Assembly: GCF_001295975.1 (NCBI RefSeq)
Contig: NZ_LJHU01000036.1
Location: forward strand, 1 to 41,056
Length of the DNA: 41,056 nucleotides
DNA from: Brevundimonas sp. AAP58
GTDB lineage: Bacteria > Pseudomonadota > Alphaproteobacteria > Caulobacterales > Caulobacteraceae
Direction of reading: 5' to 3'
Shown here: positions 243 through 41,056 of the stretch, piece after piece
Layout: every line of letters begins with the position of its first letter
Numbering within the stretch: the first letter of the stretch is position 1
Position numbers and translations under genes: made by a program
Notes under the pieces: generated by a model
What the model saw: only the letters and a program-made list of their open reading frames with translations
What the model was told of the DNA's origin: nothing
The model's database searches: none

Positions 243-854
243 ATGCCCGGCATGACGGTCGGCCTGTTCGGCGGCTCCTTCAATCCGGCGCACGATGGTC
301 ATGCCCACGTCGCAGAGACGGCGCTCCAGCGGCTCGATCTGGACCGGGTCGTCTGGCTGGTGTCGCCCCAGAACCCGCTGAAAGATGCTGGCCAGACCGC
401 GCCTCTGGCCGAGCGCATGGCCTCGGCCCGCGCCGTGGCGCCCGGCCCGCGCATGGTCGTTTCGGACTTCGAGACCCGCGCGGGTACGCGCTGGACGGTC
501 GACACACTGCGCGCGCTCAGGGCCCGCCACCCGGGCGTGCACTTCGTCTGGCTGATGGGATCGGACAATCTGGAGAGCTTCCACCGCTGGCGGGGCTGGA
601 CCGACATCATGCGGATGATGCCCGTGGCCGTGGTCGCCCGCCCGGGTTCGCTTCTGGAAAGCCGCGCTGCCCCAGCCGCCCGCCGTTTCGCCGGCCATCG
701 CGTCTCCTCGCGCGAAGCCCGCCTGCTGGCCCATATGGAGGCGCCCGCCTGGACCTATCTGCGCGCGCCGCTGAACCCGTCGTCGTCAACGGCGTTGCGG
801 GCCCGGTCACCCACTTCGCGCTCAAGCAGCGAGGAACCGCGTTCCGAGCGATAG
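243..854 (+). CDS. nadD: Nicotinate-nucleotide adenylyltransferase
   Basis: NadD transfers AMP from ATP to nicotinate mononucleotide to make deamido-NAD, a cytosolic step of NAD synthesis. The N-terminus carries the nucleotidyltransferase signature GGSFNPAHDGH near residues 9-19. The C-terminal half contains WLMGSDNLESFHRW, and SSTALRAR stands in the usual ISSTxIR position. The start was placed at ATG 243; ATG 252 and TTG 222 are also possible because no clear ribosome binding site separates them. The family normally ends soon after the SSTxIR motif. Here the last 15 or so codons, rich in Ser and Arg, run through a 40-bp dispersed repeat (818-857) that supplies the stop codon. It heads a block with rsfS and rlmH, an arrangement common in bacteria. 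Confidence 0.93.
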   Translation: MPGMTVGLFGGSFNPAHDGHAHVAETALQRLDLDRVVWLVSPQNPLKDAGQTAPLAERMASARAVAPGPRMVVSDFETRAGTRWTVDTLRALRARHPGVHFVWLMGSDNLESFHRWRGWTDIMRMMPVAVVARPGSLLESRAAPAARRFAGHRVSSREARLLAHMEAPAWTYLRAPLNPSSSTALRARSPTSRSSSEEPRSER

Positions 855-857
855 CGC
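818..857 (+). repeat. 40-bp hairpin repeat, copy 1
   Basis: First copy of a dispersed 40-bp element also found at 30687, 35697 and (reverse strand) 28803, with a shortened copy at 37963. It starts GCGCTCAAGCAGCGA, has an inner stem GGAAC/GTTCC around a CGC loop, then GAGCG, and ends TAGCGC. The 5' CGCTC can pair with GAGCG, or alternatively the 5' GCGCT with the terminal AGCGC. This copy covers the 3' end of nadD and contains its TAG stop. Function unknown. Confidence 0.7.
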
Positions 858-3027: not shown

Positions 3028-3079
3028 CCGCGTGGTCGATACGACCGATACTGACGCAGCACGGCCTTAACCTGCGAGG

Positions 3080-3400: not shown

Positions 3401-3520
3401 CCCTTTTCCACTTTCCTCCGCCGCATGACGCTGATTTTATCGACCGGACGCGGACCCGCCACGATTGGCGGCGACGGTCCGCGGCTTCCTCCCGCCCCAC
3501 CGGGGCCTGAAAGAGACCGA

Positions 3521-24731: not shown

Positions 24732-25138
24732 TAGAACGCGAGCCCGGCCGGCAGCGGCGCGGACCCCAGCGCCAGCCGCGTGATGAAGAAGACGCTGGCC
24801 GCCGCCAGCAGGAGACACACCAGGCTGATCAGGCCCGACAACGTCCGGTTCGAGCCCGGGGTGTGGATGTAGTCGTCGACGATGACCTTGGCGCCCATGT
24901 TCATGTGCCAGATGGAAATCAGCAGGGTCGCCGCCAACAGCGCCGCGTTGACGCGGTTGGCGAACCAGTCGAGCGCGCCCCCATAACCCGCCCCGGCGAG
25001 GGAGAAGCCGCTCCACAGCGCCCAGAGCGCCAGCGGGATGAGGATCAGCGAGGACAGCCGCTCGGCCGTCCACTCGCCCGCGCCGTGCCGCTCCGACACC
25101 TTGACGCCCTTCACGAAGACCTTGGTCTGGCGGCTCAC
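24731..25138 (-). CDS. sdhD: Succinate dehydrogenase membrane anchor subunit
   Basis: A 135-residue membrane anchor with three hydrophobic helices (about 34-52, 62-82 and 98-122). Together with SdhC it holds haem b and the quinone site. Landmarks are the conserved [19 protein letters not shown] in part, and [21 protein letters not shown], where the His is a likely haem ligand and DDYIH is the family signature. The start is GTG 25138, which overlaps the sdhC stop (GTGA). Its stop overlaps the sdhA ATG. These overlaps suggest the four subunits are made in step. Confidence 0.93.
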
Positions 25139-25614
25139 AGCGTCACCTTCCCGGTCGCGAACAGGATGCCCCAGAAACCGACAGCGATCACCAGCGCGCC
25201 CCACAGGCTCAGCCAGGTCAGGCTGGTCGCCGCCTTGGGCGACAGGCTCGACCCGGCGTCCCAGATCAGGTGCCGCACGCCCGCTGTCAGGTGATAGGCC
25301 GCTGCGAGCGTGACCCCGAACCAGATCAGCAGGCCGATCGGCGAGGCCATCAGGCCGCTGAACGTCGCATAGGCCTCGGGCCCGAACGCCGCCGCCGCCA
25401 GCCATGCCACAAAGACCACCGACCCAACCGACAGGGCGCCCGCCGCCATGCGGTTGAGGATCGACCCGGTCATGGTCGCGTGGAAGCGCCAGACCTGCAG
25501 ATGGGGGGACAGAGGACGCGGGCGGCCGTTCGGCTGGATCACGAAGCGGCCAGTCTGGTCTCCGGTCGGGTCGTTCGACGTATCGAGCGGCGCGCCGGGG
25601 GAGGCGTTCGACAT
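25135..25614 (-). CDS. sdhC: Succinate dehydrogenase cytochrome b556 subunit
   Basis: A 159-residue anchor subunit. It carries the SdhC signature [12 protein letters not shown] before the first helix, SILNRMAAG at the quinone pocket, and [12 protein letters not shown], where the His binds haem b. Three transmembrane helices follow in the usual spacing. The start was placed at ATG 25614; TTG 25629, in frame, would add five residues. First gene of sdhCDAB. A 6-bp inverted repeat lies about 28 bp upstream. Confidence 0.92.
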
Positions 25615-25641
25615 GCGAATGGTTCTCAAAAACCTTCAAGG

Positions 25642-25659
25642 ATCAGCGCACAAGCTGAT
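25642..25659. promoter_or_regulatory. Inverted repeat in the sdhC leader
   Basis: ATCAGC at 25642-25647 and GCTGAT at 25654-25659, separated by GCACAA. It stands about 28 bp upstream of the sdhC ATG and may be a leader hairpin or an operator. No regulator can be assigned. Confidence 0.3.
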
Positions 25660-25823
25660 GCGGGACAGGCTTTAGGGATGGTCGCGGGGGGGTGTCAACG
25701 AACCGGAGGCGCGCAATCGGCCGCACTGCACAAGATCGCGACGGCCCGTGGGGAACCGATCACATTTTCGCGTGTCGCGACTTCGATCTAGCCATGCCCG
25801 CCGACGGACGACAGTCTGATGGC

Positions 25824-26396
25824 ATGAGCCTCTTCGCCCTGATTTCGCTCGCTGTTTCTCCGACCGTCCAGGACCGGGCCGTCCCCTATACGGCCGAGGT
25901 CTACCGCCCGCCTGTCGTCCGCCCCTTCGAGCCGCCCTCGAACTTCGGTCGCGTAACGGCCGAGGGCGACGGCGGAGGCGACCCGCGCCGCCAGCCGATC
26001 GTCGCTCCGGTCGTGGTCGAAGCCTACAGCCGCAGCTACGAACACGCCCCCTCGACCGCGGACACGGCCTATGATCAGGGCGTGAACAATGCCGAGGCGG
26101 CAATGGACGCCCGGATGGGTCCGCTCGACGGTCTCTGGCGTCTGATCGACGCCGAAGGCCGTCCCATCCTGCAGCTCTCGCTCAGCGACCGTGGCCCCTC
26201 ACGCCCGCTGGAAGGGGCCTGGCGCAAACTCGATGCCCGTGGCGCGCTTGGACCGATCGATGCGTCAGAGCGGACCGACGCCGGGCTCGGCATGCGGCTT
26301 GGAGATGCCCAGCTCACGCTTTCGCCGGGTTCACAGGGCTGGACCGGAACTCTGACCGAAGCCGGTCGCTCGAGGAGCGTGACCCTGATCCGCTGA
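25824..26396 (+). CDS. Secreted or periplasmic protein of unknown function
   Basis: A 190-residue protein not recognised as a named family. ATG 25824 starts a short hydrophobic segment (MSLFALISLAVSP) that may be an export signal. A Pro-rich region with YRPPVVRPFEPPSNFGR follows, then a C-terminal beta-rich part from about residue 100 with GPLDGLWRLIDAEGRPILQL and paired GAWRKL and GWTGTLTEAG strands. That part reads as a lipocalin-like or immunoglobulin-like domain of a secreted protein. Earlier in-frame starts exist at 25692 and 25794 but lack a signal. Divergent from sdhC and convergent with the HIT gene. Confidence 0.6.
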   Translation: MSLFALISLAVSPTVQDRAVPYTAEVYRPPVVRPFEPPSNFGRVTAEGDGGGDPRRQPIVAPVVVEAYSRSYEHAPSTADTAYDQGVNNAEAAMDARMGPLDGLWRLIDAEGRPILQLSLSDRGPSRPLEGAWRKLDARGALGPIDASERTDAGLGMRLGDAQLTLSPGSQGWTGTLTEAGRSRSVTLIR

Positions 26397-26400
26397 CCGG

Positions 26401-26428
26401 CCTCCCGTCTCTCAGCCTGAGACGGAGG
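26401..26428. terminator. Bidirectional terminator hairpin
   Basis: CCTCCCGTCTC at 26401-26411 pairs with GAGACGGAGG at 26419-26428, with one bulged C and a 7-nt loop. It follows the stop of the plus-strand gene and covers the last codons of the convergent HIT gene. Confidence 0.55.
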
Positions 26429-26840
26429 TCTCGCGAACGACATCCAGCACCACCGCGAGCTCATCCGCGCCGTATTGCTCCGCCCCACCCCGCCCCCAGA
26501 CCGGGTCAGGCCAGAGCGGATCGTCGCGCCGCCGCCCGACCACATGGACATGCAGCTGAGCCGTGACGTTGCCGAGCGCGGCGACGTTCAACTTGTCTAT
26601 CGGTCGGCCGGCCGTCTCACCCAGCGCCCGCACGGCCTGCCCGGCCCGCACCGTCTCCTCCAACAGCCGGGCGCGGTCCTCAATTGACAGATGTTCGATC
26701 TCGGTCGCGCCCTCGACCCGAGGGATCAAAATCAGCCATGGAAACCGCGCATCGTCCTGCACCCGCACATGACAGAGCGGCCAGTCGAGGGCGAAGACCG
26801 ATCCTGCGTCAAAGGCCGGGTCAGAGCGAAAGCCACTCAT
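26412..26840 (-). CDS. HIT domain protein
   Basis: A 142-residue member of the histidine triad superfamily of nucleotide hydrolases and transferases. From ATG 26840 it shows WPLCHVRVQDDARFPWLILIPR in part, the helix LLEETVRAGQAV, and KLNVAALGNVTAQLHVHVVGRR (landmarks LNVAALGN and QLHVHVVGRR). In the usual HxHxHxx motif the first His is replaced by Gln95, leaving His97 and His99; His99 is the position of the nucleophile in HIT enzymes. Similar small proteins are widespread and mostly uncharacterised. It lies 90 bp after the EcsC gene. Confidence 0.88.
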   Translation of the reverse strand: MSGFRSDPAFDAGSVFALDWPLCHVRVQDDARFPWLILIPRVEGATEIEHLSIEDRARLLEETVRAGQAVRALGETAGRPIDKLNVAALGNVTAQLHVHVVGRRRDDPLWPDPVWGRGGAEQYGADELAVVLDVVRETSVSG

Positions 26841-26930
26841 AGTGTGATTGGTCCGAAGTGTGCGTCGATGATCATGGCTTCCCGTCCGGGCGCTTCCGCG
26901 CATCATCATGTGAACGAGCCACTCGAAACC

Positions 26931-27719
26931 TCAACCCGGACCCTCGGTCTCGGCCAACCAACGCATCCGGCAGGCCATGATCGCCGTCTCCCCCAGCTTC
27001 TCGACGAGCCGCCAGTTGACCACCGCGCCGATCGGGGCACCGACCACCGGGATCAGCTGGGCCAGCTTGGCCAGGTCGATGTAGTCGCGATACTCGATCT
27101 GGAACCGTCGCCAGTCGTAGTCGGTGATGGCCTCGGGCTGGTCGACCCCCGCGATCCAGCGTTCCAGTTCGGCCAGGGCGTCGGGCCGCCGCTTGGCGCT
27201 GGCGAAGGCCAGGTGGAAGATGTGCAGCAGGAACAGCCGCTCGCGCACCGAGCCACCGCCCCAACCGTAGGCGGCGACGACGTCGCCCAGCATCCGCACC
27301 TTGATCGCCATCAGGGCCGGGAAATCCGCCGCCGCCAGTACGAAGCCGCCCGCGCCGGCAACGCCGCCCTCGACGCTGGCGGTGTTGCGATAGACGGCGA
27401 TCGCCGCCCGCGCCCTGGCCTCACACGCCGCAAGCGACCCGTCCGGCATCGGTCTGGCCTGAAGCAGGTCCGAGCCGAACAGGATTCCCTTGGTCATGGC
27501 CTCCACGCCAGAGGTGACGATGGCGTGGACTCGTTCCGGGATGATCCGGTTGATCCGCTCCTGAGTTCCGCGCGTCGCCTTGTCCCAAAGCCCGGGAGGC
27601 CGCAGCACCCGGGCCCGCCACGCCTCCACTTCGGAGCGGACCGTCGTTTCGTCGGCAACCGCGAGCAGGCCGCCGGGCACTTCGTCGGGCGGCACGAGTT
27701 CGGGAACGGTCTGGCTCAT
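26931..27719 (-). CDS. EcsC family protein
   Basis: A 262-residue protein of the EcsC family (third gene product of the Bacillus ecs ABC transporter locus), whose biochemical role is not known. Family features are INRIIPERVHAIVTSGVEAMTKGIL in part, the glycine-rich amphipathic segment GGVAGAGGFVLAAADFPALMAIKVRML (landmarks GAGGF and AADFPAL), and a second hydrophobic Gly-rich segment LIPVVGAPIGAVVNW near the C-terminus. These suggest membrane contact. No ABC transporter gene is next to it. Divergent from mdh. Confidence 0.87.
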   Translation of the reverse strand: MSQTVPELVPPDEVPGGLLAVADETTVRSEVEAWRARVLRPPGLWDKATRGTQERINRIIPERVHAIVTSGVEAMTKGILFGSDLLQARPMPDGSLAACEARARAAIAVYRNTASVEGGVAGAGGFVLAAADFPALMAIKVRMLGDVVAAYGWGGGSVRERLFLLHIFHLAFASAKRRPDALAELERWIAGVDQPEAITDYDWRRFQIEYRDYIDLAKLAQLIPVVGAPIGAVVNWRLVEKLGETAIMACRMRWLAETEGPG

Positions 27720-27775
27720 AGTGGGATCAAGCCTCTGACGGCGTCACGGTTGCAGGCAAATGCGCACGGGTCTAG

Positions 27776-28792
<1,017 letters not shown>

Positions 28793-28802
28793 GGGCCGCC
28801 GG

Positions 28803-28842
28803 GCACCACCGCTCGGCTCGCGGACCCTCGGTGCCTGAGCGC
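28803..28842 (-). repeat. 40-bp hairpin repeat, copy 4 (reverse strand)
   Basis: Read on the minus strand this matches copy 2 at about 34 of 40 positions: GCGCTCAGGCACCGA, inner stem GGGTC/GAGCC around CGC (one mismatched pair), GAGCG, and a decayed 3' tail. The outer CGCTC/GAGCG pairing is kept. It lies 10 bp after the mdh stop codon. Confidence 0.6.
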
Positions 28843-28847
28843 GATTT

Positions 28848-28882
28848 GTCTCCGCCCCGTCGCGAAGCGATGGGGCGGAGAC
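28848..28882. terminator. 16-bp perfect hairpin between mdh and the YbjN gene
   Basis: A 16-bp stem (28848-28863 with 28867-28882, one G-T pair) closed by a GAA triloop. It ends 2 bp before the stop codon of the convergent gene and serves both sides as a terminator. It lacks a T-run on either strand, as is common in such GC-rich genomes. Confidence 0.65.
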
Positions 28883-28884
28883 GT

Positions 28885-29403
28885 CTACTGCGGCTGCGGG
28901 CTGACCGTCCGCCCGAGATCGATCGCCAGACTGCGCCAGACCTGGATCGGATCGTCCAACTGGGCCGCGCCCCCGCCTTCGGTGAGCAGGACGTCGTATT
29001 GCGCCACCGCCTGACCAGGGACGTTCGACCCCTCTTCCGGCGCGGCGTAGAAGGCCTTCACGAAGCGCCGCTCCCCGTTCCAGCGGCCAATGACGGCCTC
29101 ATTGGCCTGGGGTCCGGTGAAGGCGGCGGTGAACTGCACGTCCGGGCAACGTCCGTCGGTGCAGGAGAACAGCGTCAGCACCCACCGCAGCGGACCGTCG
29201 TCGACGCGCAGATACACGCGGTCGCCGGCGCTCTGAGGTTCCGACACTGTCAGCCCCGCCGCCGTCAGTCGCCCGGTGATCTCCGCCACGGGCAGCCCGG
29301 TCCAGCGCCCGGTCGGCGCGGCCGCCGTTTCCTGAGCCAGGGCGGCGGGGGCCGTCAGGCTGACTGCGAGAAGGGCGGCGGCGATCAGGGCGGTCGGCTT
29401 CAT
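28885..29403 (-). CDS. YbjN domain-containing secreted protein
   Basis: A 172-residue protein with a clear signal peptide (MKPTALIAAALLAVSLTAPA to ALAQ at about 24) followed by a YbjN-like domain: VAEITGRLTAAGLTV, DRVYLRVDDGPLRWVLTLF, a CTDGRC pair of cysteines, VQFTAAFTG and RWNGERRFVKAFY. YbjN domains are related to the chaperone SecB/CesT fold; exported versions are common in Caulobacterales, with unknown role. The two nearby cysteines could form a disulphide. The frame opens much further upstream, but only the part from ATG 29403 has protein character. Confidence 0.8.
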   Translation of the reverse strand: MKPTALIAAALLAVSLTAPAALAQETAAAPTGRWTGLPVAEITGRLTAAGLTVSEPQSAGDRVYLRVDDGPLRWVLTLFSCTDGRCPDVQFTAAFTGPQANEAVIGRWNGERRFVKAFYAAPEEGSNVPGQAVAQYDVLLTEGGGAAQLDDPIQVWRSLAIDLGRTVSPQPQ

Positions 29404-29429
29404 GGCGAGGTTCCCGGCGGACAGGCGCA

Positions 29430-30578
29430 TCAATCTAGCGCCGATTGCGGCGAAGCGGCGACCGGCGCGTCCAGCGTCTCGGTCGAGGCCGCCTCCAGCC
29501 ACTCCGCGCCCTGCATCTCGTTCAGCCGCGAGACGGTGCGCTCGAACTCGAACGCGCCGTCGCCCTTGGGATACAGCAGCTCGGGCGGGCCAGCCGCCAG
29601 CCCCACGAGGCGTCGCCGGGCCTCGTACAGCGCATCGATGAGGGTGACGAACCGGTTCGCCGCATGGCGCCTGTCCGGCGTCAGCAGCGGGATGTCCTCG
29701 ATGAACAGGGTGTGGAAGCGTCCTGCGATGGCGAGGTAGTCGCGCGATCCCAGCGGCCGGTCGCACAACTCGGCGAACGTTGCCCGCGCCAGCCCCCCGG
29801 CCGTTCGCTGGATGGTCACGTCACGGCCGAGGATGTGCAGGATGGCCGGGCATTCCGGCATCTCACCCTTGAGATCGTCCCACAGGTGGTCGAAGGCCAT
29901 GCGGCGGCCCATGTCGACGTCGTCGTACCAGACTCGAGACACCTTCAGCCGGTCCAGACGCCAGTCACGCCCGCCTTTCAACTCCACCACTTCGCAGCGC
30001 TCGACGATGCGATCGATGAAGGGGACGAACAGCGGCCGGTTGATCCCGTCCTTGTAGAGCTGGTCGGGAGCCCGGTTGGAGGTGATGCAGACCACAACCT
30101 TGCGCGCGAACAGGGCGTCGAACAGCCGACCCAGGATCATCGCGTCGGCGATGTCGGTGACCTGCAGCTCGTCGAAGCACAGGAGTCGCGCCTCCGAGGC
30201 GATCAGGCCCGCGACCGGCTCGATCGGATCGTCGCCCCTGTGCGTGCCGAACACCCGCTGGCGGGCGCGCCTGTCGCCTTCGCGCCATTGGCGGATCAGG
30301 TCGTGCACCCGCGCCATGAAGGCATGGAAGTGGGCGCGGGTCTTCCGTTTCTCCGGCGCGCAGGCGAAGAACAGGTCCATCAGAATGGATTTGCCCCGTC
30401 CCGGCGGCCCCCAGAGATAAAGCCCCCGCACCTCCGGAACCCCGCCGAACAGGCCACGCTTGCCGAGATCCCTCTCCAGCCGCGCGAGCGCGTCGACGGC
30501 CTGCTTCTGCGCCGGATCGGCGGTCAGACGCCCGTCCTTGATGCGTTTGTCGTAGGCGGCGCGCGTGCGGGATCCCAT
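29430..30578 (-). CDS. zapE: Cell division protein ZapE (AFG1-like ATPase)
   Basis: A 382-residue P-loop ATPase. The Walker A motif GPPGRGKS is at 57-64 and Walker B LLCFDE at 132-137. The family motifs LYLWGPPG, AHFHAFMARVHD, LQVTDIADAMILGRLF and YFVTLIDALYE-like (here NRFVTLIDALYE) are present. ZapE/AFG1 proteins interact with FtsZ or act in membrane protein quality control; the alphaproteobacterial ones are close to mitochondrial Lace1/Afg1. The start was placed at ATG 30578. An in-frame upstream start at 30656 would add 26 residues of unlikely character and invade the asd leader. Confidence 0.92.
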   Translation of the reverse strand: MGSRTRAAYDKRIKDGRLTADPAQKQAVDALARLERDLGKRGLFGGVPEVRGLYLWGPPGRGKSILMDLFFACAPEKRKTRAHFHAFMARVHDLIRQWREGDRRARQRVFGTHRGDDPIEPVAGLIASEARLLCFDELQVTDIADAMILGRLFDALFARKVVVCITSNRAPDQLYKDGINRPLFVPFIDRIVERCEVVELKGGRDWRLDRLKVSRVWYDDVDMGRRMAFDHLWDDLKGEMPECPAILHILGRDVTIQRTAGGLARATFAELCDRPLGSRDYLAIAGRFHTLFIEDIPLLTPDRRHAANRFVTLIDALYEARRRLVGLAAGPPELLYPKGDGAFEFERTVSRLNEMQGAEWLEAASTETLDAPVAASPQSALD

Positions 30579-30686
30579 GGCGTCCGGGCTTAGCGAGGGC
30601 TTTCGTCGGAGGAAAGCGGTTGCTTCGCACACGCGAAGGCATAAATGCCAAGCCACGGAAGTCCGCTTCCAAACTCCCCAGATACC

Positions 30687-30726
30687 GCGCTCAAGCAGCG
30701 AGGCTCCGCGAGCCGAGCGTTAGCGC
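30687..30726 (+). repeat. 40-bp hairpin repeat, copy 2, in the asd leader
   Basis: GCGCTCAAGCAGCGA, inner stem GGCTC/GAGCC around CGC, GAGCG, then TTAGCGC. Relative to copy 1 the inner stem differs on both arms in a way that keeps all five pairs. It ends 19 nt before the asd ATG, with the ribosome binding site GAAGGA in the gap. Confidence 0.75.
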
Positions 30727-30745
30727 GTCCGAAGGACTGACAAAT

Positions 30746-31792
30746 ATGGCCTACAACGTCGCCATCGTGGGCGCGACCGGCAACGTCGGACGCGAAATGC
30801 TGACCATCCTCGAGGAACTGGAGTTCCCCGTGGCCGAGATGCACGCCGTGGCGTCGCGCAAGTCCAAGGGCGTCGAGGTCGCCTGGGGGGACAAGACCAT
30901 CCGTTGCGAGGTCATCGACAGCTTCGACTGGTCCAAGGTGGACATCGTCCTGATGTCGGCGGGCGGCGACGTGAGCCGCGAGTGGTCCGAGAAGATCGGC
31001 AAGGCCGGCCCCATCGTCATCGACAACTCGTCGGCCTTCCGGAAGGACCCCGACGTCCCCCTGATCGTGCCCGAGGTGAACCCGGACGCCATCAAGCTGG
31101 CGACGAAGAAGAACATCATCGCCAACCCCAACTGCTCGACCGCCCAGCTGGTCGTGGCACTGAAGCCCCTGCATGACGCGGCCAGGATCAAGCGCGCGGT
31201 CGTCTCGACCTACCAGTCCGTCTCGGGCGCCGGGAAGGAGGGCATGGACGAGCTGTGGAACCAGACCAAGGCCATCTACGGCCTGGGCGACGCCTCGCCC
31301 AAGAAGTTCCCCAAGCAGATCGCCTTCAACGTCATCCCCTTCATCGGCTCGTTCCGCGACGACGGCTACACCGACGAAGAGGCCAAGATGTGGGACGAGA
31401 CCCACAAGATGCTGGACCCCGCCATCAAGCTGACGGTCACCTGCGTGCGCGTGCCGGTCTTCGTCGGCCACTCCGAGGCGGTGACGGTGGAGTTCGACCG
31501 ACCCATCAGCCCCGACGAGGCCCGCGCCATCCTGCGCGAGGCGCCGGGCGTGCTGGTCATCGATAAGCAGGAGCACGACGGTTACATCACCCCGGTCGAC
31601 GCCGCCGGCGAGCACGCCGTTTACGTCTCCCGCATCCGCAAGGATCACACGGTCGAGAACGGCCTGAGCCTCTGGGTGGTGTCGGACAACCTCAGAAAGG
31701 GCGCGGCGCTCAACGCCGTCCAGATCGCCCAGCTGCTGGACGAGACGGGCACGATCAAGCCCCGGAGCGGGTACCGGTCCATCGCTGTCTGA
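30746..31792 (+). CDS. asd: Aspartate-semialdehyde dehydrogenase
   Basis: Asd reduces aspartyl phosphate to aspartate semialdehyde with NADPH, leading to lysine, diaminopimelate, threonine and methionine. The 348-residue protein shows the Rossmann motif GATGNVGRE at 10-18, the catalytic Cys130 in NPNCSTAQLV, QSVSGAGKEGMDEL, and the His of CVRVPVFVGHSEAV. Length is normal for the branch that includes Gram-negative enzymes. GAAGGA stands 9 nt before ATG 30746. The leader holds a 40-bp hairpin repeat. Next on the strand is rarD. Confidence 0.97.
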   Translation: MAYNVAIVGATGNVGREMLTILEELEFPVAEMHAVASRKSKGVEVAWGDKTIRCEVIDSFDWSKVDIVLMSAGGDVSREWSEKIGKAGPIVIDNSSAFRKDPDVPLIVPEVNPDAIKLATKKNIIANPNCSTAQLVVALKPLHDAARIKRAVVSTYQSVSGAGKEGMDELWNQTKAIYGLGDASPKKFPKQIAFNVIPFIGSFRDDGYTDEEAKMWDETHKMLDPAIKLTVTCVRVPVFVGHSEAVTVEFDRPISPDEARAILREAPGVLVIDKQEHDGYITPVDAAGEHAVYVSRIRKDHTVENGLSLWVVSDNLRKGAALNAVQIAQLLDETGTIKPRSGYRSIAV

Positions 31793-31795
31793 TTT

Positions 31796-31816
31796 CCCTC
31801 TCCCGCCGGGAGAGGG
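31796..31816 (+). terminator. 9-bp hairpin between asd and rarD
   Basis: CCCTCTCCC at 31796-31804 pairs with GGGAGAGGG at 31808-31816 with a GCC loop. It follows the asd stop by 3 bp. Its right arm reaches into the purine-rich ribosome binding site of rarD, so folding could hide that site. Confidence 0.5.
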
Positions 31817-31825
31817 GAGGACCCC

Positions 31826-32743
31826 ATGACCGTGTCCAAATCCCAAGCCCCCTTTGTCGCCGCCCTCGGCTGCTACGTCATGTGGGGCTTCATGCCGCTG
31901 CTGTTCATGGGGCAGGCGGCGCTCGGCTTCACCTCGCCGGAGATTCTGTCGCACCGCGCCCTGTGGTCGGTGCTGTTCGCGGGGGGTCTGGTGCTTCTGG
32001 CCCGCCAGTCCGGACAGGTCCGCACGGTCCTGTCCCAGCCCAGGACCGTGGCCTGGCTGCTGCTGGCCACCGTCCTGATCGCCTTCAACTGGGGCGTCTA
32101 CGTCTGGGCCACGACCCATCAGGCCACGCTGGAGGCCAGCCTCGGCTACTACATCAATCCCCTGCTCAACATGGTCGTCGGCCTGTGGCTGTTCCGCGAG
32201 CGGATCGACCGCTGGGGCTGGGTCGCCATCGGACTGGCCGCTGTCGGCGTGCTGTTCCAGGCGCTCGCGCTGGGCCGCCCGCCGTGGATTTCGCTGATGC
32301 TGGCCTTCAGCTTCGGGGCCTATGGGGTCATCAAGAAGCGCATTCCGGTCGAGGCCCAGGCGGGCCTGTTCATCGAATGCCTGATCCTCCTGCCGTTCGG
32401 CATCGCCTATGTCGCCTGGCTCCAGATGGCGGGCCAAGGCCACGGCTTTTCGACCCCCGAGGGCTTCGTCTGGGCGCTCGCCAACGGCCCGGCGACGGTC
32501 CTGCCGCTGGCGCTGTTCGCCTTCGCCGCGCGCCGGATGCCGCTGTCGACCATGGGCTTCATCCAGTTCCTGGCCCCGACGCTGCAGTTCTGCGTCGGCC
32601 TGGCGACGGGCGAGGACTTCACCGTGCTGCGCGGCGTCTCCTTCGCCTTCATCTGGCTGGGCGCGGGCGTCTTCGCGGCCGCCGCCCTGATGCGCGCCCG
32701 GGCCGCGCGACGCGCAGCCGAAGACGCGGCGCTGCCGGTCTAG
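31826..32743 (+). CDS. rarD: RarD protein, EamA/DMT superfamily transporter
   Basis: A 305-residue inner-membrane protein with ten predicted helices in the EamA drug/metabolite transporter fold. RarD landmarks are GCYVMWGFMPLLF near the start, LSHRALWSVLF, NWGVYVWATTHQATLEASLGYYINPL in parts (NWGVYVWA, SLGYYINPL), and FIQFLAPTLQF toward the C-terminus. The family was named for a chloramphenicol-sensitivity phenotype; its physiological substrate is not settled. It overlaps the end of the convergent serine hydrolase gene by 4 bp. Confidence 0.93.
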   Translation: MTVSKSQAPFVAALGCYVMWGFMPLLFMGQAALGFTSPEILSHRALWSVLFAGGLVLLARQSGQVRTVLSQPRTVAWLLLATVLIAFNWGVYVWATTHQATLEASLGYYINPLLNMVVGLWLFRERIDRWGWVAIGLAAVGVLFQALALGRPPWISLMLAFSFGAYGVIKKRIPVEAQAGLFIECLILLPFGIAYVAWLQMAGQGHGFSTPEGFVWALANGPATVLPLALFAFAARRMPLSTMGFIQFLAPTLQFCVGLATGEDFTVLRGVSFAFIWLGAGVFAAAALMRARAARRAAEDAALPV

Positions 32744-33885
32744 AGCGCCGCGTAGAGCGCCTCGATCAACCGTTGCGCCCGGGGGTCGCCGATCAGATAG
32801 GGCGACTGCCGCGTCATGGCGTAAGCGGCCGACAGCCTCCTCGCCGGATCGGCGAAGGCGCAGCTGCCGCCCCAGCCGCAGTGCCCCACCGCCTCCGGGT
32901 TCGGGCCGAAGATGTTGAGACCGGCATTGCGGGTGAACCCCGCCGCCCAGCTCATGACGAAGGGCAGGACCTTGTCCTGACCGGCCACCCGCTCGCGCGT
33001 CGCTTCTGCCACGACCGTCGGCGACAGAACCCGCGCGCCCTCCAGAACCCCGTCGTTGGCGATGACGCCCAGGATGCGGGCGAGGTCGCGCGCCGTGCCG
33101 TGCAGATTGGCCGAGGGAATCTCGATCGATCGCCACTCCGCCGATCCGCGCCCGCCCGGCGCCGAGCCCTTGTCGAAGAAGGCGGCCTTCTTGACGGCGT
33201 CGATGGTTCCGAGGTCGGTGGCCTTGGACGGCTTTCTCAGCGCAGCCACCCGCCCGTGCTCGGCCTCCGGCAGGCCGATCCACAGATCCAGCCCGAACGG
33301 GCGGGCGAAATCCTCCGCCAGCGCCCGGCCCATGGTCCGCCCGTCGGCCAGGCGGAACACCTCGTTGGCCAGATAGCCGACGGTGACGGGGTGATAGCCC
33401 GAGCCGGTCCCGAGTGGCCACATCGGCGCCTGGGCCGCCAGCCGATCCAGCACCGCCTGCCGGTCGAACCAGATGGCCGGATCGACGGGTTCGGAGAACC
33501 CCGGCAGCCCCGCCTGGTGCGATAACAGTTGCGCCACCGTCACCCGATCCTTGCCGTTCGCGCCGAAGGCGGGCCAAAGCGCCGCGACAGTCTCGTCATA
33601 GGCCAGCTTGCCCCGCTCGACCGCTGAAGCCATCAGGATGGCCATCACCGCCTTGCCGGTAGAGAAAACCGGGACCAGCGTCCGCTCATCCATTGGCACA
33701 GCGCCCGCCGCATCCGCCCGGCCGGCCCAAATGTCGAGCACGACCTCGCCCTCGATCACCGCCGAGAACCGCGCCCCCTGCTCGTTCAGCCCGTCGGGCG
33801 CATCGACGAAGTTGGCGGCGAAGGCGTCCTTCACCGCGGCGAAGCGTTCGGGGCAGGAGCCGGAAATCTCGGGCAGGCTGGTCAT
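32740..33885 (-). CDS. Serine hydrolase, beta-lactamase/esterase family (class C-like)
   Basis: A 381-residue cytosolic protein (no signal peptide) of the beta-lactamase-related serine hydrolase family. Ser75 and Lys78 form the SxxK motif in VFSTGKAVM, and a Tyr in SGYHPVTVGYLANEVF takes the YxN/YxS position. The LLSHQAGLPGF stretch and WGGSCAFADP near the C-terminus are typical of the EstB-like esterases rather than of resistance enzymes. Its natural substrate is unknown. It begins 4 bp inside the end of the upstream flavoprotein gene, so the two are probably co-transcribed. Confidence 0.9.
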   Translation of the reverse strand: MTSLPEISGSCPERFAAVKDAFAANFVDAPDGLNEQGARFSAVIEGEVVLDIWAGRADAAGAVPMDERTLVPVFSTGKAVMAILMASAVERGKLAYDETVAALWPAFGANGKDRVTVAQLLSHQAGLPGFSEPVDPAIWFDRQAVLDRLAAQAPMWPLGTGSGYHPVTVGYLANEVFRLADGRTMGRALAEDFARPFGLDLWIGLPEAEHGRVAALRKPSKATDLGTIDAVKKAAFFDKGSAPGGRGSAEWRSIEIPSANLHGTARDLARILGVIANDGVLEGARVLSPTVVAEATRERVAGQDKVLPFVMSWAAGFTRNAGLNIFGPNPEAVGHCGWGGSCAFADPARRLSAAYAMTRQSPYLIGDPRAQRLIEALYAAL

Positions 33886-35114
33886 GCCCCCTCCCTAGCG
33901 CCGCCGCGCGAGACCCGCCACTCCAGCGCCGCGCGCCCCGCCACGACGCCGGACGCCAGACTGGCCTGCAGCAGATAACCCCCCGTCGGCGCCTCCCAGT
34001 CGATCATCTCGCCCGCCACGAACACGCCGGGCCGAGACCGCAGCATCAACGATGGATCCAGGCTCTCGAACCGGACCCCGCCCGCCGAGGAGATGGCCCG
34101 CTCCAGCCCCTGCATGCCGGTCAACTTGAGCCTGATCGCCTTGATCCGCTTCGCCAGCTTCTCGAGGTTGGCCGGAACCTCGCCGATCTCGCGCAGCATG
34201 GCGACCGCGACCGGCGACAGACCGCCGGCCTTCCTCAGGTGATTGGTCAGGCTGTCCTTGGCCTTGCGCGGCCGCGCCAGCCGCTCGGCCAGCGCCGCCT
34301 CGCTCAGGTCGGGCCGCAGATCGACCGTCAGCACCGCCGTCCCGTCGCGCGCGATGGCCTCCCGCAGCGCCGACGACAGGGCATAGACCGCGCCGCCCTC
34401 GACACCATAGCGCGTCACGACGAGCTCGCCGCGCACCGAATGGTCGCCGAACGTCAGAACGGCGGGCTTCAGCACCGCGCCCGCGAACCGTTCGACCAGC
34501 ACCGCTGACCACGCCACGTCGAAGCCCGCGTTGGCTGGAACCAGCGGCTCAACCTGGGCGCCTTCGGCTTCCAACCACGGAACCCAGGCCCCGTCAGAAC
34601 CCAGCCGGAGCCAGCTCGCCCCGCCGAGCGCCAGCACCGTCGCCGCCGCCCGCTCCCGTCGCTCGCCGTCGGCCGTCTCGAACATCAGGTCGTCGCCATC
34701 CCAGCCGATCCACCGCGACCGTGTCCGCACCGCCACCCCCAAGTCGGCCAGCCGCGCCAACCAGGCCCGCAGCAGCGGCGAGGCCTTCATGGCCTTGGGG
34801 AACACCCGGCCCGACGATCCCACGAACGTCGGCTGGCCCAGCCCCTCGGCCCAGGCGACCAGATCGGCCTGCGAGAAGGCCTCCAGCCACGGCGCGATCA
34901 AGGGTCGACGATCACCGTAGCGGCCGACGAACGCCTCGGCCGGCTCGGAGTGGGTCAGGTTCAGCCCGCCCCGCCCCGCCATCAGGAACTTGCGCCCCAC
35001 CGACGGCATGCGGTCGTGCACCACCACCTGGGCCCCGCCCCGCGCCAGGGTCTCGGCGGCCATCAGACCGGCCGGGCCGGCGCCGACGACGTGGACGGGA
35101 TCAGGCGTGCTCAT
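33882..35114 (-). CDS. HI0933/BaiN-type NAD(P)/FAD-dependent oxidoreductase
   Basis: A 410-residue flavoprotein. It has the dinucleotide-binding motif VHVVGAGPAGLMAAE at the N-terminus, the family signature VGRKFLMAGRGGLNLTHSEP (landmarks RKFLMAGRGGLN), the insertion domain, and the C-terminal FAD contact block RPGVFVAGEMIDWEAPTGGYLLQ (landmarks VFVAGEMIDW and TGGYLLQ). It belongs to the shorter subgroup often called TIGR03862. The substrate is unknown; relatives include the bile-acid enzyme BaiN. ATG 35114 is 64 bp from the divergent Gre-family gene. Confidence 0.92.
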   Translation of the reverse strand: MSTPDPVHVVGAGPAGLMAAETLARGGAQVVVHDRMPSVGRKFLMAGRGGLNLTHSEPAEAFVGRYGDRRPLIAPWLEAFSQADLVAWAEGLGQPTFVGSSGRVFPKAMKASPLLRAWLARLADLGVAVRTRSRWIGWDGDDLMFETADGERRERAAATVLALGGASWLRLGSDGAWVPWLEAEGAQVEPLVPANAGFDVAWSAVLVERFAGAVLKPAVLTFGDHSVRGELVVTRYGVEGGAVYALSSALREAIARDGTAVLTVDLRPDLSEAALAERLARPRKAKDSLTNHLRKAGGLSPVAVAMLREIGEVPANLEKLAKRIKAIRLKLTGMQGLERAISSAGGVRFESLDPSLMLRSRPGVFVAGEMIDWEAPTGGYLLQASLASGVVAGRAALEWRVSRGGAREGA

Positions 35115-35178
35115 CGGAGCCCCTTAGCCGCTCCGGCCTTGCAGCGGAACGTCCGTGCGCGGCATACGCTTCTGCCCC

Positions 35179-35655
35179 ATGAGCGTCGCCTTCACCCGCG
35201 AGGAGGACCTGGAGGCCACGGCCGCCGATCTTCCCGACCGCCCGATCTCGCCCCACCCCAACCTCGTCACGCCCGGCGGGCTGGCGGCCATCGACGCGGC
35301 GCTGGCCGAGGCCCGCGCGGCCTATGCCGCCGCACAGGCCCAAGGATCGATCGAGGCTGACCGGACGGCGATGGCCCGGGCCACCCGCGACCTGCGCTAC
35401 TGGTCCGCGCGCCGGGCCTCAGCCCAGCTCGTCGAGGCGCCCGCCGACGGCCGCGTCCGCTTCGGAGGCTCCGTCACCATCGAACGCGAGGACGGCCGCA
35501 CCCAGACCTGGCGCATCGTCGGCGAGGACGAGGCTGATCCGGCAAACGGCTCCGTCAGCCATGTCTCGCCGCTCGCCCGCGCCCTGATCGGCAAGCGCGT
35601 AGGCGATGAGGCCAACGTCGCCGGTCAGTCGGTCGAAATCATCGCGGTGGACTGA
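35179..35655 (+). CDS. GreA/GreB-family elongation factor (variant tip)
   Basis: A 158-residue protein with a Gre-type layout: N-terminal helical hairpin (about 30-86) and C-terminal FKBP-like domain (about 90-158). The latter is close to standard GreA: RIVGEDEADPANGSVSHVSPLARALIGKRVGDEA, in parts IVGEDEADP and PLARALIGKRVGDEA. Gre factors enter the RNA polymerase secondary channel and place acidic tip residues (DxxEN motif) at the active site to rescue backtracked complexes. Here the tip reads QGSIEADR, so the normal DLSEN sequence is missing. It may be a regulator that binds polymerase without cleavage activity, like other secondary-channel proteins. ATG 35179 was chosen; a frame from 35155 has a weaker start. 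Confidence 0.82.
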   Translation: MSVAFTREEDLEATAADLPDRPISPHPNLVTPGGLAAIDAALAEARAAYAAAQAQGSIEADRTAMARATRDLRYWSARRASAQLVEAPADGRVRFGGSVTIEREDGRTQTWRIVGEDEADPANGSVSHVSPLARALIGKRVGDEANVAGQSVEIIAVD

Positions 35656-35696
35656 ACCGCGCCGCGGCCCCACATTGCAGGCACCAGCGCCGACCG

Positions 35697-35736
35697 GCGC
35701 TCAAGCCGCGAGCCTCTGCGGGGCGAGTGCTAGCGC
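35697..35736 (+). repeat. 40-bp hairpin repeat, copy 3
   Basis: GCGCTCAAGCCGCGA, inner stem GCCTC/GGGGC around TGC (one G-T pair), GAGTG, then CTAGCGC. Both stems pair, with G-T wobble, although the stem bases differ from the other copies. It ends 19 nt before ATG 35756, the same distance as copy 2 from the asd start, with AAGAAGGA in the gap. Confidence 0.72.
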
Positions 35737-35755
35737 CCCTCAAGAAGGAATGCCG

Positions 35756-35923
35756 ATGGCCAGAAAGCCCAACTACAGCTTCGAGCGCATGGAGCGGGAC
35801 AGGGCCGACGCCGAGAAGGCCGCCCGCAAGGCCGCCGCCAAGCAGGCGAAGAAAGACGCCAAGGCCCGGGGCGAGGACGTCGATCAACCCGACTGGCAGC
35901 CGCCCGAAGACGAGGCCGTCTAG
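35756..35923 (+). CDS. Small basic protein of unknown function
   Basis: A 55-residue protein: MARKPNYSFERMERDRAD, then a Lys/Ala-rich helix (KAARKAAAKQAKKDAKARG in part) and an acidic end QPPEDEAV. Short proteins opening with MARKPNYSFER occur in many alphaproteobacteria; their role is unknown. The highly charged helix suggests RNA, ribosome or membrane contact, but this is a guess. AAGAAGGA lies upstream. ATG 35750 is an alternative but leaves no spacing from that site. It ends 2 bp before the convergent prfA stop. Confidence 0.75.
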   Translation: MARKPNYSFERMERDRADAEKAARKAAAKQAKKDAKARGEDVDQPDWQPPEDEAV

Positions 35924-35925
35924 GC

Positions 35926-36993
35926 TCAGGCGAACTCGGCTTCCAGATCGGCGAGGCGCGCGGCCTGATCCTCGGCGATCAGGGCGTCCAGCAGGGGATC
36001 GAGGTCGCCCTCCAGAATCTGCGGCAGGCTGTGGAGCGTCAAATTGATGCGGTGGTCGCTGACCCGGCCCTGCGGGAAGTTGTAGGTGCGGATGCGCTCG
36101 GATCGGTCGCCCGATCCGACCTGAGACTTGCGAGCGTCCGAACGCGCCTGGTCCTTCTGCTGGCGCTGCAGGTCGTACAGCCGCACCCGCAGGTTCTTCA
36201 TCGCCTTGTCGCGGTTCACGTGCTGGGACTTCTCCGACGACGTCACCACGATGCCGGTCGGCAGGTGGGTGATGCGCACGGCCGAATCCGTCTTGTTGAC
36301 GTGCTGCCCGCCCGAGCCAGACGCCCGATAGGTGTCGATGCGGATGTCCTTGTCCTGGATGTCGATCTCGACGTCCTCGACCTCGGGCAGGACCGCCACC
36401 GTCGCCGCCGAGGTGTGGATGCGGCCGCCCGCTTCTGTCGCGGGCACGCGCTGGACCCTGTGAACGCCGCTCTCGAACTTCAGCCGCCCGAAGACGCCGT
36501 CGCCGGTGACCGTGGCGATGATCTCCTTGTAGCCGCCGGCGTCGCCTTCGGTGGCGCTGTCCAGCTCGACCTTCCAGCCCCGGGTAGAGGCATAGCGGCT
36601 GTACATACGGAACAGATCGCCCGCGAACAGGGCCGCCTCGTCACCACCGGTTCCGGCCCGCACTTCCAGAACAGCCGAGGCGTTCTCGTCGGCGTCGCGC
36701 GGGGCCAGCAGCAGGGCTACGCCCCGCTCCATCTCCGGCAGACGTTCCGACAGAATCCGCAGCTCGTCATCGGCCATCGCCGCCATTTCGGGGTCGGCGG
36801 CCATGCCTTTCAGGTCCTCGATCTCGGCGCGCGCCCGGGCCAGCGCCGTGACCGCATCGGCCACGGGCTTCATCTCGGCGTGCTCCTTGGACAGGCGCAC
36901 GATCTCCTGCCCGTCGGTGGCCGCGCCCATGCGCGCCTCCACCTGGTGGAAGCGGTCGAGGACCTGATCGAGCTTGGACTGGGGCAGGCGCAA
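35926..36993 (-). CDS. prfA: Peptide chain release factor 1
   Basis: RF1 recognises UAA and UAG stop codons and triggers peptide release. The 355-residue protein has the codon-reading PxT motif as PAT at 184-186 and the catalytic GGQ at 228-230 in [18 protein letters not shown] (landmarks SGGQHVNKT). Domain 1 (about 1-95) and the conserved [18 protein letters not shown] are present. The start is TTG 36993, with no ATG or GTG nearby that would give a better N-terminus. In many alphaproteobacteria prfA is followed by prmC; here it ends against a small convergent gene instead. Confidence 0.96.
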
Positions 36994-37174
36994 AGGGGGC
37001 TTGAGCTCCGGTTCGGCGAAGGGCCGGACCCTTATCGCGCGCCACGGCGGCTGTCGATGCGACGGCGCGGGCCCATCGTGGAGGATAACAACGGCGTCAT
37101 CGACGGTGACTTGCCCGCGTCTGGGGCATTAGCTGTGCCTTGGGAAGCGCTTCTGGCGGTTCCGTGGGGGCCGA

Positions 37175-37951
37175 ATGGACACCTTCCTGCTGTTCCTGCT
37201 GGTGGGTGTCGTTGCCCAGACAGCCGACGGGGCCTTAGGCATGGCCTATGGGCTGATCGCCAACTCCGTGCTTCTGGCGCTGGGCGTCCCGCCCGCCACA
37301 GCATCAGCGAGTGTCCACGTCGCCAAACTCTTCACCGGCAGCGCCTCGGCCGCGTCCCATCTGTATCACCGCAACATCCTGTGGAGCCTGTTCTGGCCGC
37401 TCGCCATCGGGGGCGTTCTCGGGGGCGTCGTCGGAGCCTTCGTCCTAACCGGCGTGGACGGTGACGTCATCCGTCCTTTCATATTGGCCTATCTCTTCGC
37501 CATGGGGGTCTGGGTGCTGGCACGGGCCGCGCGTCAGTCCCGGACGCGCGAGCTGCCTCCACGTCTCAGCGGCCCGCTCGGCCTCGTCGGGGGCTTTCTG
37601 GACGCTATCGGCGGCGGGGGCTGGGGGCCGACCGTGACCTCGACGCTCGTCGGCGCGGGAGCGGAGCCCCGACATGCCATCGGCACGGTCAACACCTCCG
37701 AGTTGCTGGTGACCGCCGCCATCTCGGCTGCCTTTCTCGTCGCCCTTCTCACCGGTCGATGGGATGGAGGCGCGTTGCACGATCACGCCTGGGCCGTCGG
37801 AGGCCTGATCGTCGGAGGGCTGATCGCGGCCCCCTTCGCCGGCTGGATCACCAAACGCCTGCCGCAGCGGGTTCTGACCTATGCCGTGGGCACCCTACTG
37901 ATCCTGCTCGCAGCCTTCCAGGGCCTGCAGATAGCGGGCCTGTTCGCCTAG
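37175..37951 (+). CDS. TSUP family transporter (TauE/SafE)
   Basis: A 258-residue inner-membrane protein with seven to eight hydrophobic helices and the two-fold TauE/SafE repeat. The halves share the VGVVAQTADGALGMAYG-like and VGGFLDAIGGGGWGPTV motifs (the latter is the strong family signature), with helices following each. Members export sulfite, sulfoacetate or other organosulfur anions; the substrate here cannot be told. ATG 37175 has GTGGGGG upstream. Divergent from prfA and convergent with engB. Confidence 0.9.
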   Translation: MDTFLLFLLVGVVAQTADGALGMAYGLIANSVLLALGVPPATASASVHVAKLFTGSASAASHLYHRNILWSLFWPLAIGGVLGGVVGAFVLTGVDGDVIRPFILAYLFAMGVWVLARAARQSRTRELPPRLSGPLGLVGGFLDAIGGGGWGPTVTSTLVGAGAEPRHAIGTVNTSELLVTAAISAAFLVALLTGRWDGGALHDHAWAVGGLIVGGLIAAPFAGWITKRLPQRVLTYAVGTLLILLAAFQGLQIAGLFA

Positions 37952-37962
37952 GGCGGCCTGGT

Positions 37963-37988
37963 GGCGCGACCGCTCGTTGCCTGAGCGC
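37963..37988 (-). repeat. Shortened copy 5 of the dispersed hairpin repeat
   Basis: Read on the minus strand the 26 bp begin GCGCTCAGGCAACGAG and end CGGTCGCGCC. They match the 40-bp element if 14 bp, the whole inner stem-loop, are removed. CGCTC and GAGCG still pair. It begins directly after the engB stop codon. Confidence 0.5.
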
Positions 37989-38645
37989 CTAGAGCTCCAC
38001 GCCCGTCGTGCGCATGATCTCGGCCCGCAGCTCGGGCAAGCCAAGACCTTTCTCGGCCGAGGTCACGGCGACGGCCGGGAAGGCCGCCGGGCGCTTTGAG
38101 ATCGCCTTGAGCGTCGCCTCGCGGACGGTCTCGCGCTCATGGGCCTTGATCTTGTCGGCCTTGGTGAGGACGACCTGATAGCTGACGGCGGCCAAGTCCA
38201 GCGCGTCCAACGCCTCCGTATCCACCGCCTTGAGCCCATGGCGGCTGTCGATCAGCAGATAGACCCGCTTCAGCGTCACCCGGCCTCGCAGGTAGTCGCG
38301 GCCCAGGTTCTGGAACTGCCTCACCGTCGACTTGGATGCCTTGGCCCAGCCATAGCCCGGCAGGTCGACCAGCCGCAACTTGCCGTCCAGATCGAAGAAG
38401 TTGACCTCGCGCGTCCGGCCCGGCTCGTTGGACGCCCGCGCCAGCTTGTGCATGCCGACAAGGCCGTTGATCAGGCTCGACTTGCCGACGTTGGACCGGC
38501 CGGCAAACGCGATCTCGGGCAGATCCGGCTCTGGCAGCTGCTCGATCTTGGCGCACCCCATGACGAAGGTCGCGGGCCGGGCGAACAGCACCCGCGCGGT
38601 CTCGATCTCCTCGTCCGAATAGGTGCCGGTTTCGACCTCCGTCAC
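37989..38645 (-). CDS. engB: Ribosome biogenesis GTP-binding protein EngB/YihA
   Basis: A 218-residue essential GTPase needed for 50S ribosome assembly. The GTPase motifs are G1 GRSNVGKS at 49-56, G3 DLPGYGWA from 94, and G4 TKAD at 161-164. The N-terminal [21 protein letters not shown] and [14 protein letters not shown] are typical of the family. GTG 38645 is the start; it lacks a good ribosome binding site and touches the large palindrome upstream. The order yidC-engB is conserved in alphaproteobacteria. Confidence 0.94.
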
Positions 38646-38647
38646 GC

Positions 38648-38696
38648 GCGCGCGATCCCGAAAAGTGGCCGCCGGTTTTCGGACCAGATCGCGCGC
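38648..38696. repeat. Large palindrome, alphaproteobacterial intergenic repeat type
   Basis: A 10-bp stem (GCGCGCGATC with GATCGCGCGC) continues into a 7-bp stem (CCGAAAA with TTTTCGG), with a 4-nt bulge ACCA and an 11-nt GC-rich loop. The minus strand reads TCCGAAAACCGG and CCACTTTTCGGGATC, the form of a repeat seen very widely in alphaproteobacterial genomes. It fills the gap between yidC and engB and may limit read-through from yidC. Confidence 0.7.
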
Positions 38697-38697
38697 A

Positions 38698-40521: not shown

Positions 40522-40526
40522 TCGGG

Positions 40527-40955: not shown

Positions 40956-41043
40956 CCTCACCCGTGCAGCGAAGCGGAACGGGGGAGGGGGACCATGCGG
41001 AGCATGGTGGAGGGGGCGGACGCGAGCACCGTGTCTGGGGTCG

Positions 41044-41056
41044 CCCCCCCCCCCCC
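41044..41056. other. Terminal run of 13 C, probable contig end
   Basis: The window ends in 13 consecutive C. Together with the missing rpmH this suggests an assembly edge rather than a biological feature. Confidence 0.6.

Follow-up and report, generated by a model that had tools for sequence, protein, structure and literature searches.

The Caulobacter CIR repeats, reportedly described by Chen and Shapiro in 2003, are more than 100 bp long, unlike the repeat described here, whose unit measures 40 bp. They share with it an intergenic position, an inverted-repeat structure and the bacterial family, as described in PMC10969869. CIRs are further tied to CcrM GANTC sites, whereas none of the four copies in our stretch of DNA contains GANTC. 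Rickettsia palindromic elements, as described in PMC10969869, are likewise palindromic repeats sometimes read in frame, as our element is in nadD and two further genes, but are unlike it in their length of about 150 bp.

REP sequences are defined by a 5'-terminal GT(A/G)G tetranucleotide followed by a palindrome (PMC3686654), and inverted doublets predominate among REPs and REPINs (PMC3686654, PMC8049555). The element resembles these families, as portrayed there, in consisting of short, mostly intergenic palindromes present in tens of copies, with single copies retained or lost and with local amplification. It departs from them in lacking a 5' GT(A/G)G, an NTAG sitting in its 3' half instead, in having close pairs that are head-to-tail rather than inverted (42 versus 6), and in its constant internal loop, exchangeable outer and apical stems and class-wide 20-nt core; moreover, no RAYT was found for it in a search for Y1_Tnp. 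Intervening sequences (IVSs) of 23S rRNA are defined by their location together with their excision from the rRNA (PMC6191907), the enzyme that cuts them out of the precursor being RNase III. A 26-nt form of the element occurs in 23S genes of Rhodobacterales, one copy lying within and one perhaps at the alphaproteobacterial IVS positions published there, but unlike an IVS the hairpin is found scattered over gene edges, plasmids and coding sequence as well.

The window, by which we mean the whole analysed stretch of 41,056 nt from Brevundimonas sp. AAP58 (contig NZ_LJHU01000036.1), holds four copies, numbered as follows.

818..857, plus strand: copy 1, overlapping the 3' end of nadD (243-854)
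30687..30726, plus strand: copy 2, the focal copy, 40 bp, with the start codon of asd 19 nt downstream
35697..35736, plus strand: copy 3, between greA (35179-35655) and a 57-codon gene (35750-35923)
28803..28842, minus strand: copy 4, between malate dehydrogenase (27830-28792, plus strand) and a YbjN-like gene (28885-29430, minus strand)

The nadD frame reads through copy 1 and terminates at the element's own TAG. The called start of the 57-codon gene lies 13 nt downstream of copy 3, and copy 4, at the convergent ends of both its neighbours, has its 3' end 10 nt away from the malate dehydrogenase stop. An earlier sequence-only reading had proposed these four copies, and a search with its layout pattern at up to three mismatches returned exactly these, with the same letters and strands, against no match in 100 dinucleotide shuffles of the window. 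It had also given the inner-stem letters correctly, including the one stem mismatch in copy 4; copy 3 has an additional T-G wobble. A degenerate minus-strand match at 37958-37988, with two mismatches and lacking the 3' outer arm, is doubtful and possibly a decayed copy; it is not among the covariance-model matches.

The anatomy is given here for copy 2; numbered from the first base of the element, the paired positions are 1-5/36-40, 12-13/31-32 and 16-20/24-28.

30687..30691, plus strand: 5' arm of the outer stem, GCGCT, covarying with 30722-30726
30692..30697, plus strand: 5' side of the internal loop, CAAGCA, conserved
30698..30701, plus strand: GC, then the GA of a tandem G.A mismatch
30702..30706, plus strand: 5' arm of the apical stem, GGCTC, whose inner pairs covary
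30707..30709, plus strand: apical loop, CGC, the same in 168 of 175 genus copies
30710..30714, plus strand: 3' arm of the apical stem, GAGCC, covarying with the 5' apical arm
30715..30721, plus strand: GA, GC and the 3' side of the internal loop (G-N-T)
30722..30726, plus strand: 3' arm of the outer stem, AGCGC, covarying with 30687-30691

The element thus described has a constant basal module, composed of the outer stem NNNCT/AGNNN, the CAAGYA/GNT internal loop, GC/GC and GA, and a variable apex, which ranges from a bare GAA loop (26 nt in all) to a 5-bp stem (40 nt) or longer; an A-rich tail follows on the 3' side. Among 224 copies, positions 6-13 read CAAGCAGC in 171 and positions 31-35 read GCGNT in 194 (GCGTT 69, GCGGT 60, GCGAT 55, GCGCT 10), so that the base preceding TAG is variable. 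The tandem G.A mismatch (GA/GA at positions 14-15/29-30) is retained in 200 of the 224, with no correction to a palindrome. One idea is that the internal loop could be read as a kink-turn.

A covariance model was built from 27 aligned copies of the parent genome out of 30 pattern-match loci fetched, L015, L021 and L029 being omitted because their length differed or their outer stem was broken. Within these 27 copies, 96.0% of pair cells were standard and 43 cells carried double changes, compared with 13.0 in shuffles. Two-sided changes affected the outer stem, which has three such pairs, as well as the apical stem. Across 175 copies from the genus, the three variable apical pairs were Watson-Crick in 97.5% of cells (46.5% shuffled) and the three variable outer pairs in 90.3% (63.8% shuffled), the outer arms including GCGCT/AGCGC, GCCCT/AGGGC, TCCCT/AGGGA, GGCCT/AGGCC and others. 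The sequence-only reading had also proposed two competing folds, the second pairing the 5' CGCTC with the inner GAGCG. This helix was dropped: it showed no two-sided change in the 27 copies and none in the asd orthologues, because the outer arms vary with one another and not with GAGCG, the folding energies of the window copies as DNA being less clear.

The suspicion that the copies belong to a dispersed palindromic repeat family with covarying stems was borne out in the parent genome (2.97 Mb, 138 contigs), where the covariance model gave 55 matches at E<=0.1 and the layout pattern at up to two mismatches gave 39, its reversed control giving none. In the relatives set, all 37 genomes of the genus, our own included, carried matches, at least 8 to 93 each. 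A family-wide sample had model matches in 71 of 199 genomes, and in that sample two genomes of the same genus (G064, G111) had none. A pattern scan of named genomes returned at least 119 stretches, of which 107 were labelled Brevundimonas or Caulobacteraceae and 12 bore broader or other labels; our purpose-written scanner counted 175 copies in them and, when run on 727 kb of reversed locus sequence, detected none.

In other genera the basal module is unchanged and the apices differ. Genus g25 has GAGGCGCAGCCGAG and similar apices, g14 bears GAGCGGATGCGAG, and g24, together with one genome of another family, has the bare GAA apex, giving the 26-nt form NNN-CTCAAGYAGCGAAGCGNTAG-NNN. The exact 20-nt core was found in 13 of 385 genomes sampled across Alphaproteobacteria (reversed control 0). 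Plasmids, among them those of Cereibacter, Rhodobacter, Rhodovulum, Sulfitobacter and Asticcacaulis, carry it as well, and so do 118 viral-contig stretches; the long form was found in 14 such stretches. One 33-nt query found no copy in the 50,697 phage records of INPHARED. The core pattern leaves the outer bases unspecified, and in the loci found by it alone the three outer bases were perfectly complementary in 114 of 133 distinct copies, in 12 kinds, with complementarity dropping to 0.35 one step beyond. Over all 155 copies, some of which were found by the model or by an arm-bearing query, the three outer bases were complementary in 135. Weak matches on Pantoea plasmids (40-nt form, E 0.5) and in Persicobacter (26-nt form, E 0.9) were discounted. 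The highest number in the 385-genome sample, 38 exact core copies, was seen in a 1.7-Mb genome of another family (G374).

Rfam gave no match over the window at gathering score, nor over 30640-30780 at E<=1. Our literature searches, which covered few subscription journals, returned no description of the element, and a 17-nt piece of the core used as a query returned no paper.

Gene edges were taken from a purpose-written gene caller, and overlaps with gene ends, such as that of copy 1, were scored as outside. On this basis most copies are extragenic: 47 of 49 in the parent genome and 164 of 175 in the genus are not wholly within a called gene, and both orientations occur. The 3' side is more often nearer to a gene edge, being the closer one in 127 of 196 copies with both neighbours (127 versus 69, p 4e-5), and an edge lies within 25 nt on the 3' side in 95 copies and on the 5' side in 32. 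In the parent genome alone this bias did not reach significance (28 of 44, p about 0.10), and it was absent among sense copies between co-directional genes (27 of 51). Close pairs, with starts within 120 bp, were head-to-tail in 42 of 48 cases, 25 of them commonly spaced at 48-49 bp; all six inverted pairs had their 3' ends outward and the opposite arrangement did not occur. Tandem neighbours of which at least one has non-GCG outer arms had an arm in common in 9 of 18 cases. The 3' flank is A-rich in the 40-nt and 26-nt forms alike: A makes up 44% of the bases at +3 to +8, falling to about 18% at +20 to +39. It holds 48% A at +3 to +8 in the 83 copies without a 3' gene edge within 60 nt; since the A-richness persists away from gene edges, the tail seems to be part of the unit. 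A scan of 25000-41056 for intrinsic terminators found five sites against 5.9 expected and none at the three copies located there.

The downstream neighbourhood of copy 2 is as follows.

30727..30737, plus strand: GTCCGAAGGAC, between the element and the asd start, including the Shine-Dalgarno-like GAAGGA
30746..31792, plus strand: asd, aspartate-semialdehyde dehydrogenase (NCBIfam NF011456, 501.5 bits, cut-off 223)

We surveyed 129 asd stretches from 128 of 131 genus genomes, G143 being represented twice and G091, G092 and G133 giving no asd match. A 40-bp copy scored in 82 stretches (81 genomes), 11 more held a clear length variant, 4 were doubtful or short and 32 had none, the last three classes being assigned by eye. 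The element is thus clearly kept before asd in 92 of the 128 genomes and persists through most of the genus. GAAGGAC follows it in 72 of 82 rows, and the bases directly upstream are not conserved. The segment GTCCGAAGGAC, conserved in most genomes that retain the asd element, could itself fold as a small hairpin masking GAAGGA. A separate conserved block lies 38 nt upstream of the element (30616-30648, GCGGTTGCTTCGCACACGCGAAGGCATAAATGC in the window); it is conserved also in many genomes without the asd element and is perhaps a promoter region.

At this locus the outer stem is near-invariant and the apical stem is not. The variable apical pairs of the 82 copies were Watson-Crick in 243 of 246 cells, in 13 apex types of which ten were perfectly paired. 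Among 24 distinct copies (from 33 rows, after removal of three duplicates and of six rows differing in length) we counted 35 double-change cells, all within the apical stem, compared with 12.7 in shuffles. On a tree of 31 asd sequences, seven apex alleles required at least 14 changes (shuffled mean 16.2; 17 of 200 shuffles as low as 14). In the nearest relative, G065, the asd copy differs from ours at all three variable apical pairs (GCT/AGC versus CGA/TCG), and 482 bases downstream are 95% identical. Mismatched intermediates being rare, the apical stem of the asd copy seems, from these comparisons, to have been replaced as a block. A change of apical pairing as a block, with hardly any mismatched intermediates, means that covariation alone is no proof of selection on the fold. 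The earlier proposal of selection on RNA or cruciform structure is supported in part, by an asd copy that is kept although the bases just upstream of it vary.

At other loci, a copy found in one species may be altered or missing in another. In the fetched stretches of G065 and G140, in which only part of the flanks of the other three window copies has a counterpart, the scan detected the asd copy alone. Nothing in these stretches corresponds to the flanks of copy 1, G140 retains a truncated remnant of copy 3, and among 29 aligned relatives copy 3 is variously present, altered or absent. We infer insertion from presence and absence, because the flanks of the compared species are too diverged for base-resolved sites. 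MITEs are recognised by terminal inverted repeats that match those of a transposase and by duplication of the target site; the outer arms of the element are inverted repeats, but they vary by locus, and no base-resolved empty site was seen among the diverged flanks.

Copies also occur inside functional sequences. Four species (L187, L190, L138 and L142) have an in-frame copy, read as AQAASDRVASDS, near the N-terminus of one protein, which we take to be thiC-like, and the same protein in L099 is without it. One further copy sits within the reading frame of another gene, presumably lysA-like. On a Cereibacter plasmid two 26-nt copies lie within a 23S rRNA gene (1684-4604 of stretch L482).

1832-1857 of L482, minus strand: copy inside the 23S gene, local nt 149-174
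3002-3027 of L482, plus strand: copy inside the 23S gene, local nt 1319-1344

The published IVS positions in 23S rRNA are 131-168, 543-550 and 1176 in E. coli numbering (PMC6191907). By its location in the sequence, the copy at nt 149-174 apparently fits the IVS at 131-168, and that at nt 1319-1344 may correspond to the site at 1176. At the place of the copy at nt 1319-1344, it is missing in the Rhodobacter, Falsirhodobacter, Gemmobacter, Haematobacter and Paracoccus records and a related hairpin is found in Rhodovulum. A match in Rhodobacter CZR27 and at least one in Sulfitobacter fall in stretches matching the start of the L482 23S gene, and two loci of G641 (L464 and L477, both near 1501) have the core inside a 23S match, likewise close to published IVS sites.

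The explanation we favour, which we regard as probable, is that these copies make up a hairpin repeat family of long standing in Alphaproteobacteria, dispersed and non-autonomous, which behaves like REPs or MITEs while having an anatomy of its own and, in our search, no RAYT partner, which exchanges its apical stem as a block and some copies of which are kept by the host. The copies would spread as single-stranded or cruciform hairpins through an enzyme acting in trans and would trade apical stems as blocks by gene conversion or template switching; both arms would then change together as a consequence of the block exchange. The retained asd copy might have been recruited as a leader element beside the ribosome-binding site. 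Several observations speak against parts of this explanation. Gene conversion predicts shared apices within a genome, and within-genome apex identity was 0.236 compared with 0.186 shuffled, an excess that lies within the range of the shuffles, which reach 0.273, so that sharing is not established. The mostly sense copies of viral contigs fit an RNA role better than a purely mobile one. Counting against it, too, are the 3' bias, which lacks significance in the parent genome alone and is missing among sense copies between co-directional genes, and the common arm found in only 9 of 18 cases of tandem neighbours with non-GCG arms. Nor did a search for a mobiliser, with Y1_Tnp as the only partner sought, find one: the RAYT domain PF01797 (Y1_Tnp), positive in 5 of 14 control genomes, had no match in the parent genome, occurred in 4 of 131 genus genomes (ours among the 131) and was absent from 127, and was detected in 2 of 17 copy-bearing genomes from other genera. 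The four Y1_Tnp loci of the genus, 2-3 kb each, had no element copy nearby.

It is tempting to speculate further, although we consider it rather unlikely, that the family is a class-wide mobile hairpin moved by a hitherto undescribed enzyme. Its copies would home into each other, the 20-nt core being recognised and transferred, the apex serving as a cassette and the outer arms being remade to pair at each site; such a hairpin might have settled at gene edges, on plasmids and in those loops of 23S rRNA that tolerate it, which would make it a source of some IVSs, and been recruited as a leader, as before asd.

An alternative is that the element acts in cis as RNA, as a hairpin in mRNA leaders or trailers that binds a protein or the ribosome and regulates many genes. 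The asd leader is in line with this, since the copy persists and the bases separating it from the upstream conserved block do not, and so is a subset of copies that clusters 7-23 nt upstream of a start codon. Folded as RNA, copy 1 has its energy minimum in precisely the covarying structure, whereas with DNA parameters all four window copies favour folds differing from it (z-scores of -1.33 to +0.46); a 26-nt copy and a copy with TCCC arms retain the outer stem under the same parameters. In viral contigs, sense copies outnumber antisense ones both between co-directional genes (36 versus 16) and inside called genes (43 versus 9). Brevundimonas copies between co-directional genes, however, are 51 sense and 62 antisense, inspection of translations revealed no common theme among the neighbouring genes, and copies lie within rRNA, in coding sequence and in head-to-tail arrays. 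The RNA z-scores are modest (-1.2 to -1.6), the energy being just moderately better than that of shuffles, Rfam had no match, and a wobble test for selection at the RNA level gave no clear preference (55 G-T versus 39 A-C cells, p 0.12). As a general explanation of the family we therefore find a cis-acting RNA doubtful.

Still less probable, in our view, are non-mobile palindromes, in which covariation would be purely mutational, through quasipalindrome correction or template switching, and which would have spread by local duplication and recombination. Template-switch correction predicts the joint change of the arms with almost no intermediates, and the direct tandem arrays would agree with local duplication. 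Yet the mismatched parts, CAAGCA/GNT and the tandem G.A, are strongly conserved and uncorrected, identical 20-nt cores turn up in distant families and on plasmids, and dispersal to unrelated sites exceeds what local duplication gives. A conventional REP/REPIN family mobilised by a RAYT (a Y1 HUH transposase) since lost from the genome, for which the sequence-only reading had proposed a transposase search, is very improbable: the tens of copies of a short, bulged and largely extragenic palindrome, the TAG within the 3' half and the few inverted pairs recall such a family, but Y1_Tnp is lacking here and scarce elsewhere, no copy lies by the genus matches, there is no 5' GTAG or GTGG, the TAG is preceded by a variable base and most close pairs are direct.

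If the favoured explanation of a dispersed, non-autonomous hairpin family is true, a recurrent structured repeat of a major bacterial class has so far gone undescribed, and a palindromic repeat can spread without a RAYT while its stems change as blocks. Covariation in such repeats would then not be simply readable as selection on the fold. The family would connect dispersed palindromes with the intervening sequences of 23S rRNA, and the asd leader would be a clear test case of a host recruiting a mobile hairpin.

Three further observations concern individual genomes. A metagenome bin labelled Bordetella (L114, L118, L177) bears typical Brevundimonas copies and is probably mislabelled. In G012 and G143 (L489, L490), copy sets about 450 bases apart occur at two places per genome with equal scores; we considered rRNA operons, but the fetched stretches contain no rRNA match, and the twin sets therefore belong to some other duplicated region. 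In genus g24 (L278, L280, L281, L287, L295, L298 and L299), the 26-nt form adjoins or interrupts a larger palindromic sequence with CCTCCCC or GGGGAGG, and looks as though it had been placed into the tip of this larger palindrome.
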